DNA of 64,000 nucleotides. It comes from Phycisphaeraceae bacterium (GTDB taxonomy: Bacteria; Planctomycetota; Phycisphaerae; Phycisphaerales; Phycisphaeraceae). Location of the stretch: assembly GCA_029260655.1 (NCBI GenBank), contig JAJDCU010000034.1:1-64000 (forward strand). The letters run 5' to 3'. A program made the translations under genes and the position numbers. A model generated the notes under the pieces. It was not told the DNA's origin. It saw nothing but the letters and a program-made list of their open reading frames with translations, and ran no database searches. This document shows, piece by piece, positions 43,199-45,681 of the stretch (its first letter is position 1; the number at the start of each line of letters is the position of its first letter).

Positions 43199-43250
43199 TG
43201 GAGCTGACAGGGATCGAACCTGCGACCTTCTGTATGCCATACAGACGCTC
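43199..43250 (-). other. tRNA-Ala(GGC) 3' fragment, probable prophage attachment site
   Basis: On the minus strand the sequence matches tRNA positions 22-73: GAGC of the D stem, anticodon arm TCTGT-ATGGCAT-ACAGA (anticodon GGC), variable AGGTC, T arm GCAGG-TTCGATC-CCTGT and acceptor 3' strand CAGCTCC plus A. The 5' part (acceptor strand and D loop) is missing and unrelated AT-rich sequence follows. This is what an integrase leaves at the distal end after using a tRNA 3' half as its core site. Confidence 0.8.
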
Positions 43251-43357: not shown

Positions 43358-43365
43358 GTCCCAAA
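43358..43365 (+). repeat. target site duplication, left copy
   Basis: GTCCCAAA directly precedes the left terminal inverted repeat. The same eight bases follow the right one at 45600-45607. Confidence 0.9.
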
Positions 43366-43387
43366 GGTAGTGGGTCATTTTGAAATA
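43366..43387 (+). repeat. left terminal inverted repeat of the transposon
   Basis: 22 bases, an exact reverse complement of 45578-45599. The transposase stop codon lies within it. Confidence 0.95.
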
Positions 43388-44277
43388 CGGGGTCGGTAAG
43401 TGCCCCGCTTGAGCGATCCGGCCTCAATCTCGGTCTGTTCTTTGGCTTCCAGCAGGCCCACTATATCCGAGACTTCCCAGAAGCTATCAACCAGCCCAGC
43501 GGCCATCGCGGGGGTTGCGCCGCTCAGGGACTTGTGGGCCTTGCAGAAGTTGTAATACATGAAGAACAGGGCCTGCGCGTGGCAGTGGTTCTCGACCTTC
43601 TTGGAAAAGGCGTTTGTGAGTCGGGTAAACCGCCGCATGTGCATTCGCATCGTCAGGTTGTGACGCTCGACGTAGCTGGTGCTGATATGGGCTAGGTCGG
43701 GGTGGCCGATCCGGCGGTAGGGCTTGCAACCGACGCACTGGCTGGGGCTGTATTTAACGTGCGCGGGCTTGTTCTTGTTGCGGGGATCGTCGCCATACAA
43801 CTTGACCAACTGCCCGTAATCAACCATCGAACCGAAGTTGTCTATGACTGCTTCCAGGTAGGCCCCGTAGCCGTCGGTGGTCAGTTGCATCCGGTTGATG
43901 ACACGACCCGATAGATCATTCATAAACTCCCATGCTGTACCGGCATCACGCCCGCCAACAGCCCATGTCACGATCAGCTTGGTATCCGCATCAATCGCGG
44001 TCCAGGTCCAAACGTCGCCCTCGCCATGCTTGCCGAGCTTCGCCTGCTTTTCTTTGCAGCCTACGAACTGCCAGATTTCATCACACTGGACACGCTCACA
44101 TGCCAGACCGCGCACATGCTCATCGTGGTACTCGGCACAGACATCGCCAAGCTCCGCCAACAGACGCAGGATAGCGCCCTTGCTGCGTCCGGTGACGCGG
44201 CAGATGGATCGGATCGACATACCCTCCACCATCATGTGGACGATCTGGGTGCGCTGTTCGGTGGTGAGTTTATTCAT
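43375..44277 (-). CDS. IS1-family transposase
   Basis: A 300-residue DDE-type transposase. An N-terminal helix-turn-helix (MMVEGMSIRSICRVTGRSKGAILRLL) is followed by the catalytic domain with VQCDEIWQFVG (first acidic residue), QLTTDGYGAYLEAV (second Asp) and ISTSYVERHNLTMRMHMRRFTRLT (Glu region), the pattern of IS1-family enzymes. GGAG lies seven bases before the ATG. The stop is inside the left inverted repeat. It is intact and expressed from a promoter at 44301-44329. Confidence 0.92.
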   Translation of the reverse strand: MNKLTTEQRTQIVHMMVEGMSIRSICRVTGRSKGAILRLLAELGDVCAEYHDEHVRGLACERVQCDEIWQFVGCKEKQAKLGKHGEGDVWTWTAIDADTKLIVTWAVGGRDAGTAWEFMNDLSGRVINRMQLTTDGYGAYLEAVIDNFGSMVDYGQLVKLYGDDPRNKNKPAHVKYSPSQCVGCKPYRRIGHPDLAHISTSYVERHNLTMRMHMRRFTRLTNAFSKKVENHCHAQALFFMYYNFCKAHKSLSGATPAMAAGLVDSFWEVSDIVGLLEAKEQTEIEAGSLKRGTYRPRISK

Positions 44278-44300
44278 TGTGGGCTCCGATCTATATACTT

Positions 44301-44329
44301 ATAATAGCTATTAAATATATCGGGGTCAA
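44301..44329 (-). promoter_or_regulatory. transposase promoter with palindromic operator
   Basis: TTGACC (44329-44324), a 17-base spacer and TATTAT (44306-44301). The -10 overlaps the perfect 12-base palindrome TAATAGCTATTA (44302-44313). Confidence 0.75.
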
Positions 44330-44342
44330 GACAAATCAGGAC

Positions 44343-44370
44343 TTGACAACAAAGTTTTTATAGCTATTAT
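44343..44370 (+). promoter_or_regulatory. promoter of the RHH-like gene with operator
   Basis: TTGACA (44343-44348), a 16-base spacer and TATTAT (44365-44370), six bases before the ATG, so leaderless. ATAGCTATTA (44360-44369), shared with the transposase promoter, overlaps the -10. Confidence 0.75.
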
Positions 44371-44376
44371 TAGTGC

Positions 44377-44580
44377 ATGTCGAAGATGGGACGACCACCT
44401 AAAGATGACGCGGAAATAAGGGGTAATGTGCTGCGCATCAGCCTCACCGAGGACGAGCGCGCAATGATCGACAAGGCCGCTCAGCGGGCCAACCCAGACC
44501 TTGACCCCTACCGCGTCTCGGCACGATGGGCGCGGGAAATCTTGGTCAGGGCCGCCAAGCGAGCCTTGAAGTCTCAGTGA
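44377..44580 (+). CDS. ribbon-helix-helix-like small regulator
   Basis: A 67-residue basic protein, MSKMGRPPKDDAEIRGNVLR then ISLTEDERAMIDKAAQRAN. A GRPPKD tail followed by a beta strand (NVLRISLT) and two helices fits small ribbon-helix-helix DNA-binding proteins. It is divergent from the transposase, and both promoters carry the same ATAGCTATTA operator-like site. I infer that it represses both transposition and its own synthesis. An alternative is an antitoxin, but no toxin gene is next to it. Confidence 0.65.
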   Translation: MSKMGRPPKDDAEIRGNVLRISLTEDERAMIDKAAQRANPDLDPYRVSARWAREILVRAAKRALKSQ

Positions 44581-44593
44581 ATACGGTTATAAT
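44566..44593 (+). promoter_or_regulatory. promoter of the transposon RNA
   Basis: TTGAAG (44566-44571), a 16-base spacer and TATAAT (44588-44593). It overlaps the last codons of the RHH-like gene and points to a start at about 44600, where the structured RNA begins. Confidence 0.7.
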
Positions 44594-44598
44594 TATTA

Positions 44599-44706
44599 TT
44601 GAAACGCCCGGGAGCGGCCGCTAGGCCACCCCCGGGGACTCTAGGACACCCGGATGCAGTCCGGTACTGAGCGTTTCAACTTGCCCTCGTTCCAGCGAGG
44701 GTTTTT
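44599..44706 (+). ncRNA. structured small RNA of the transposon
   Basis: TTGAAACGC (44599-44607) pairs perfectly with GCGTTTCAA (44671-44679), closing a multibranch fold. Inside are CCGGG/CCCGG (44608-44612 with 44631-44635, around a GGCC-gcta-GGCC hairpin) and GGACT/AGTCC (44636-44640 with 44658-44662). A terminator follows directly. With its own promoter this gives an RNA of about 107 bases. No open reading frame fits. I know of no described RNA in IS1-type elements. Confidence 0.6.
44684..44706 (+). terminator. intrinsic terminator of the transposon RNA
   Basis: CCCTCG (44684-44689) pairs with CGAGGG (44696-44701), followed by TTTTT and then CTTT. Confidence 0.85.
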
Positions 44707-44807
44707 CTTTGCGCGGGGCCAGCAGTCAACGCTTATGCTACTGGTCCCGGTGACTCTCCTAACCATTGTGAGCCTCCTTTCTCACTACATTTAGTTACCA
44801 AGGCGAG

Positions 44808-45230
44808 TTATTCGAGTATCTCCAGCATACTCAGTGCGGCGTTGGTGTCCGATCCGGGGAACCACCTACCCCTGCTTACGGTGTAGACCTTATCGCGATC
44901 CAGATGGAGGCTGTTTTCTACGAGCGCCCGCATCTTATTCATCTTGCCGCCCATTTTTGTCGCGTCTGGCAGGCCAAACAGCCGGGCAACTTCATGCGTG
45001 GCTACACCGTCCCGCTGGTGTTCTGCGAGACTGCGAAGTACCGCAATCGCCTGCTCAAGAATAGGGCCAACGGGTTCGCCAGCAGGCAAAGCAGCGGTAT
45101 TGTGGCTGTTACCCGTTAATTTGCTCTTTTTCACCGGGCTGAGGCCAAGCGACCTCAACAGGTCCGCAGCATCCTGGGCACTGTTGCACGCGATTTCCAC
45201 ACCCTGAATTGTGAGTTTGAAGCTGGGCAT
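44808..45230 (-). CDS. 140-residue transposon passenger protein, unknown
   Basis: The N-terminal 30 residues (FKLTIQGVEIACNSAQDAADLLRSLG) resemble a small alpha/beta unit. A Lys/Asn linker follows, and the C-terminal 75 residues (LAEHQRDGVATHEVARLFGL...KMNKMRALVENSLHLDRDKVY) read like a winged helix with a wing ending GRWFPG. DNA or RNA binding is plausible but not shown. The gene has a strong promoter and almost no leader. Not recognised as a known family. Confidence 0.6.
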   Translation of the reverse strand: MPSFKLTIQGVEIACNSAQDAADLLRSLGLSPVKKSKLTGNSHNTAALPAGEPVGPILEQAIAVLRSLAEHQRDGVATHEVARLFGLPDATKMGGKMNKMRALVENSLHLDRDKVYTVSRGRWFPGSDTNAALSMLEILE

Positions 45231-45239
45231 TATGGGACC

Positions 45240-45268
45240 ATAATAGCACCCGCCCGGGGGCCAGTCAA
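45240..45268 (-). promoter_or_regulatory. promoter of the 140-residue passenger gene
   Basis: TTGACT (45268-45263), a 17-base spacer and TATTAT (45245-45240). The ATG at 45230 is nine bases after the -10. Confidence 0.7.
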
Positions 45269-45345
45269 GAGCGGGTGGCCGCGTTTAAGGGTAGCGGCCC
45301 AGAGCGGACCGCTCGGACCCACCGGGCCCACCGGATCTATCGGAT

Positions 45346-45534
45346 CTATCGGATCGCCCGGTCGGCAGTCCATTTGGCCCGCTGTGAGGGGTCTACGGGC
45401 ATCTCCCAGGTGATCCCGCAGGCCTCGCACCGCATCGGCTGTTGTTTGTCCCCCTGATCGTCGGTCCTGACCGGCAGCACCTTGTGGGGGCCGACCCGGC
45501 CGCACTCGATGCACTTAGAAGTGGTGGTTTCCAT
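45346..45534 (-). CDS. 62-residue zinc-ribbon transposon passenger protein
   Basis: The protein reads METTTSKCIECGRVG...MRCEACGITWEMP, with two CxxC pairs about 25 residues apart, forming a zinc ribbon, and a short basic tail. TACAAT is exactly six bases before the ATG, indicating a leaderless mRNA. Function unknown; accessory DNA binding or host-factor contact is possible. Confidence 0.6.
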   Translation of the reverse strand: METTTSKCIECGRVGPHKVLPVRTDDQGDKQQPMRCEACGITWEMPVDPSQRAKWTADRAIR

Positions 45535-45540
45535 GCCACT

Positions 45541-45546
45541 ATTGTA
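45541..45546 (-). promoter_or_regulatory. -10 element of the zinc-ribbon passenger gene, leaderless type
   Basis: TACAAT on the minus strand ends six bases before the ATG at 45534. No clear -35. Confidence 0.5.
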
Positions 45547-45577
45547 TCAGGGCCGATCCCGGCTTCGCTCAGGGGTT

Positions 45578-45599
45578 TATTTCAAAATGACCCACTACC
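45578..45599 (-). repeat. right terminal inverted repeat of the transposon
   Basis: 22 bases, an exact reverse complement of 43366-43387. Confidence 0.95.
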
Positions 45600-45607
45600 G
45601 TCCCAAA
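45600..45607 (+). repeat. target site duplication, right copy
   Basis: GTCCCAAA, identical to 43358-43365. Confidence 0.9.
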
Positions 45608-45647
45608 TCTACCGCTGGGGTTGAGATCAAGCAATAGCTATTGATGT

Positions 45648-45681
45648 GCTATCTTCGGTAGTGGGTCAGTCTGCTATCTTC
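45648..45681 (+). repeat. possible footprint of a second insertion of the same transposon
   Basis: The direct repeat GCTATCTTC (45648-45656 and 45673-45681) flanks 16 bases that begin GGTAGTGGGTCA, the outer 12 bases of the transposon end. It may be what remains of an excised or deleted second copy, 49 bases from the intact one. Confidence 0.4.

Follow-up and report, generated by a model that had tools for sequence, protein, structure and literature searches.

IS1 is the textbook example of a minimal insertion sequence, and its usual form carries a transposase and nothing else; the classical element is ~0.8 kb long, has insA and insB' in two frames with a frameshift, and encodes a zinc finger in InsA. 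Members of the ISMhu11 group of IS1 reach up to several kb. Derivatives of insertion sequences in which the ends enclose passenger genes have been defined as transporter IS (tIS) (PMC9330008). Toxin-antitoxin (TA) pairs of several types, independently acquired, are known from within the transposition module of Tn3-family transposons (PMC7157771), and Tn7-like transposons carry diverse defence cargo including ImmA, PIN, ParE and restriction genes (PMC8649781). Among open papers, none was found on IS1-family transposons with TA or defence cargo.

The stretch of DNA analysed here (the window, 64,000 nucleotides from a Phycisphaeraceae bacterium) contains at 43366-45599 a 2234-bp element bounded by perfect 22-bp inverted repeats and an 8-bp target duplication, as the first-pass annotation had claimed. 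The terminal repeats, one adjoining the 3' end of the transposase gene (43366-43387, + strand) and one at the cargo end (45578-45599, - strand), were complementary at 22/22 positions, and the octamer GTCCCAAA lies on both sides of them (43358-43365 and 45600-45607). The element is present as a single copy in its own genome; no empty insertion site was identified, the right flank having no homologue in 51 family genomes. Between the ends are an intact IS1-type transposase, a divergent ribbon-helix-helix (RHH)-like gene, a structured RNA, a convergent gene for a 140-aa protein and, at the far end, a gene for a 62-aa zinc-ribbon protein, with 1334 bp of the element being non-transposase DNA. Five promoter-like sites were found in the element region against 1.6 expected. 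It had been claimed earlier that each of the four extra units has a readable promoter, and this held for the RHH gene (TTGACA-16-TATTAT, 44343-44370, + strand, score 11/12), the RNA (TTGAAG-16-TATAAT, 44566-44593, + strand, 10/12) and the 140-aa gene (TTGACT-17-TATTAT, 45240-45268, - strand, 10/12), but not for the zinc-ribbon gene, for which the same scan of the element region found none. The transposase has a site of its own (TTGACC-17-TATTAT, 44301-44329, - strand, 10/12). The -10 of the RHH and 140-aa genes sits only 6-9 nt 5' of the ATG, which suggests that their messages would be leaderless.

Two features of the surroundings can be mentioned here. About 50 bp past the element, at 45648-45681, there is a solo 16-bp end of the sibling type (GGTAGTGGGTCAGTCT) with a 9-bp direct repeat (GCTATCTTC) on its flanks, apparently a relic of a further element of this IS1-type family. 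On the other side, 32 nt of the 3' end of a tRNA-Ala(GGC) at 43200-43231 (- strand) are repeated exactly ~40.3 kb away, at an intact tRNA-Ala (contig positions 83461-83492), and it is likely that these repeats are the attachment sites of an integrative element, the IS1-type unit lying just inside one of its ends.

The transposase is encoded by a single ORF of 300 aa (43375-44277, - strand) whose stop codon falls within the terminal inverted repeat. It matches PF03400 (DDE_Tnp_IS1) with 44.9 bits (cut-off 24.1, E 1.8e-11), which agrees with the earlier description of an intact IS1-family transposase; the best NCBIfam model was NF033558, the IS1 score of 80 bits being under its cut-off of 100. 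The transposase has relatives at 35-64% identity. For the comparison of elements, whole genomes from the order, reference genomes, plasmids and viral contigs were searched for transposase relatives, and the ends of their elements were located by the inverted repeat together with the target duplicate, lengths being accepted from 0.9 kb and transposase genes without locatable ends being left out of the element count. Including the window element (L001), 33 elements were delimited, distributed over Planctomycetota, Acidobacteriota, alphaproteobacterial plasmids and one viral contig. They measure 1835-4500 bp, their ends start with GGTAGTGG in 22 of the 33, the 8-bp duplicates are exact in 28, and all of them have at least 1168 bp outside the transposase match. 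Copies of the element without cargo, the case that the first-pass annotation had set against its own reading, were thus not encountered (0 of the 33 delimited elements), and such forms would have shown up since elements were taken from 0.9 kb. The window element is like classical IS1 in its PF03400 DDE transposase, its short GGT-tipped inverted repeats and its short direct duplication (8 bp, within the 8-9 bp of the family), whereas it differs in its 2.2 kb length, its regulator and cargo, and its single-ORF transposase, which begins with an HTH region and is without the InsA zinc finger and the frameshift. Its transposase and ends place the element in the IS1 family, while its organisation departs from the classical one with two frames and no cargo.

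Conservation among the elements extends to their ends (GGTAGTGG type), to the transposase and to a small accessory protein of the sibling family at the left end, here called Lap for convenience, while the remaining cargo is swapped. Annotation with Pfam and PADLOC assigned TA or defence-type genes to about half of the delimited siblings. Fic cargo was found in L013 and L031 (both SoFic-like), in L022 as a near-identical copy of the L013 gene, and in L099. XRE-M78 proteins matching RmrA are carried by L028 and L072, and the full RmrT and RmrA pair lies in an element on a Hoeflea plasmid (L087:1598-3449). The other annotated cargo comprises PD-Lambda-2_B (L086, L088), MazF (L029), PIN (L067), ParE (L115), Phd (L117), NYN (L123), a DNA methylase fused to Mrr (L016), AAA-DUF4143 (L030), a STAND-like ATPase (L116), SDH/ClpP-like proteases (L014, L020, L021, L089) and P63C (L019, L071); L117 and L123 also have ParE-like genes, named from likeness to the L115 gene alone. 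Two large cargo proteins, one of them on a viral contig, appeared proteasome/Ntn-hydrolase-like by eye and had no Pfam match (L021:4283-5263 and L090:4901-5713). The genome of the window holds a second sibling (L099, G000:C22:5244-8841, 3598 bp, 8-bp duplicate TAGACCGC), and its cargo differs from that of the window, consisting of Fic and a Panacea-domain antitoxin with its partner. In the transposase tree the same cargo class is found on distant branches and several sister pairs have different cargo, and the cargo classes being scattered in this way indicates that cargo has been exchanged independently of the transposase.

Compared to the described systems, the elements resemble tIS (e.g. IS1595 and similar families) in having an IS-type transposase and ends around passenger genes, and here the cargo inside the ends varies freely among siblings; they differ in the IS1-family transposase, the conserved left-end accessory and recognisable cargo that is largely TA or defence and not resistance. 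With the Tn3 family they share TA genes of several types inside a transposon, but the transposase is unrelated: instead of a TnpA of ~1000 aa, a resolvase and 38-bp ends there is a 300-aa IS1-type transposase with 22-bp ends, no resolvase or res was seen, and each delimited element has cargo. The diverse cargo of ImmA, PIN, ParE and restriction type is reminiscent of Tn7-like transposons, although the IS1-type elements are far smaller and have one transposase with one or few cargo genes. The best reading is to class the lineage with the transporter IS, its cargo being swappable and often of TA or defence type.

In most elements, going inwards from the cargo end, one first meets a gene for a small protein; this protein has a D-x-N-Q-x-A motif and, in many cases, a tail rich in lysine and glycine. 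At this position the window has the zinc-ribbon protein (45346-45534, - strand), the C-terminus of which (DPSQRAKWTADRAIR) contains the Lap motif. A Lap HMM built from 24 siblings, with the window sequence left out, placed this ORF first among the 696 ORFs of the window in what is a modest match (E 0.0026, the next ORF having 0.61), and the same model found strong members in 26 other elements. Zinc-ribbon and motif are combined in L018 as in the window protein, and in L087 and L088 the zinc-ribbon and Lap are separate genes. When one Lap was searched with tblastn against 72,556 plasmids, only two records matched, and both bear elements of this IS1-type family. This distribution is also relevant to another account of the cargo, namely that an ordinary IS1-type insertion took up neighbouring host genes by chance. 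Such an origin would suit the 140-aa protein and the RNA, which are singletons, but every delimited sibling holds cargo in a similar architecture, Lap and the RHH gene are both common to several genera, and Lap crosses phyla as well, and we regard chance capture as the least probable of the explanations considered.

The RHH-like protein (67 aa, 44377-44580, + strand) has homologues at the same position in L076 (E 1.8e-13) and L075 (E 3e-5), and an RHH-like gene occurs in four elements (L001, L075, L076 and L077), each time divergent from the transposase. It had no Pfam match above cut-off that would confirm the fold; RHH matches in other planctomycetes do not adjoin an IS1 transposase. In the window, two palindromic boxes lie between the two genes, AATAGCTATT at 44303-44312 over the -10 of the transposase promoter and ATAGCTATTA at 44360-44369 over the -10 of the RHH promoter. 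Repeated palindromes between the RHH gene and the transposase were present in all three elements tested, of AATAGCTATT type in the window, CACATTGTGGCTACAATGTG in L075 and TGTAATGACATTGTCATTACA in L077. Compared to dinucleotide shuffles, the repeat pairs of L001 and L077 were not equalled in any of 60 shuffles, and that of L075 was weaker (P 0.08); the best single palindrome of the window intergenic region alone was not significant (P 0.18), and L019, an element without the RHH gene, also has a repeat pair next to its transposase. The simplest reading of the divergent layout and of the repeated palindromes between the two genes suggests that the RHH protein may be a repressor of itself and of the transposase.

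The first-pass annotation had gone further and seen in the cargo a control or targeting apparatus, and in its strictest form this would mean that the five parts are one co-evolved system of transposition control or target selection in which the RHH or the 140-aa protein directs insertion. The recurrence of the RHH layout and of operator-like boxes in siblings is in line with this, as is a copy of AATAGCTATT at 45633, 33 bp beyond the right end of the element and one of only two in the 64 kb. However, this outside copy may be a relic, because it is beside the solo sibling end, and no operator-like sites were found close to the insertions of the RHH siblings L075 and L077. In addition, the expectation that the five parts always occur together between such ends was not borne out, as neither the RNA nor the 140-aa protein was found in any sibling. 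A single co-evolved apparatus is thus very improbable in our view; of the earlier claim, the control part seems right for the RHH gene (divergent in four elements, with paired palindromes where examined), and for the targeting part no evidence was found.

The remaining cargo of the window seems to be of its own kind. The RNA (44600-44706, + strand, its ends placed by the promoter and the terminator) begins 20 nt 3' of the RHH gene and is predicted to form a three-way junction followed by an intrinsic terminator-like hairpin (44683-44702, + strand); RNA and terminator together fold with -52.6 kcal/mol (z -3.4), a value to be read against the ~5% of 100-nt pieces sampled from the window that also score z below -3. 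Rfam gave no match, neither BLAST nor a single-sequence covariance model found homologues (weak model matches were taken as chance), and the RNA is not recognisable as a tRNA. Two RHH siblings hold tRNA-like genes, so that genes for small RNAs may be a type of cargo that recurs in these elements: L076 has two at 1812-2014, 3' of its RHH gene (serine anticodons GCT and ACT), and in L077 there is one, with an anticodon for glutamate, that overlaps the end of the transposase. The variable arms of the L076 genes are short, which is unusual for tRNA-Ser. Searches of 392 genomes of the phylum, of plasmids and of viral contigs returned no relative of the 140-aa protein (44808-45230, - strand). Its earlier description as winged-helix-like receives a weak signal from the IclR HTH (E 0.0044, below the Pfam cut-off) and no help from an AlphaFold model made without alignment (pLDDT 42, too poor for a structure search). 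The central cargo proteins of L017 and L075 also looked winged-helix-like by eye and have no sequence similarity to it, and they were rejected as its relatives. Judged from these searches, the 140-aa protein and the RNA appear as passengers peculiar to the window copy among the delimited elements.

It could be asked whether the RHH gene, the RNA and the 140-aa protein form a new TA or abortive-infection module, with the RHH protein or the RNA as antitoxin and the 140-aa protein as toxin. RHH proteins are common antitoxins, and the same slot is the one that so many siblings fill with TA or defence-type genes. On the other hand, the RHH and 140-aa genes are convergent and not an operon, so the window cargo does not have the adjacent toxin and antitoxin genes of a type II TA operon, the 140-aa protein shows an HTH-like signal and no match to a toxin family, and L076 and L077 have the RHH gene but not the 140-aa protein. 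We consider such a module unlikely.

The explanation that we hold with good confidence is that this is a complete tIS, by all appearances inserted recently, and that the IS1-family lineage to which it belongs carries cargo constitutively. The ends, the duplication, the intact transposase, the conserved left-end accessory and the modular replacement of other cargo among siblings are direct observations. In such a tIS the transposase would act on the 22-bp ends and generate the 8-bp target duplications, and the divergently encoded RHH protein would bind the two palindromic boxes over both -10 elements, so that the transposase level is kept low. The zinc-ribbon/Lap protein would serve as a conserved accessory of the element, and the 140-aa protein and the RNA would be passengers in the slot that siblings often fill with TA or anti-phage genes, cargo which would retain the element in the cell through addiction or host benefit. 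A bolder possibility, which we put forward tentatively and think rather doubtful, is that a dedicated IS1-derived lineage in at least three phyla shuttles small TA and anti-phage modules, that the DNA-binding protein which partners the cargo and is encoded divergently (an antitoxin, RHH or XRE protein) also represses the transposase, transposition then being set free when the addiction module is lost or titrated, and that Lap/zinc-ribbon is a new transposition accessory.

These results mean that within an IS class regarded as bare transposases there is a lineage that acts as a gene shuttle. The defined ends provide a simple rule to find and delimit small mobile TA and defence modules in Planctomycetota, Acidobacteriota and Alphaproteobacteria, and position inside such ends flags candidates for unknown modules, for example the 140-aa protein and the RNA of the window. 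The elements also offer a small system for asking whether a cargo-linked DNA-binding protein controls the transposition of its carrier.
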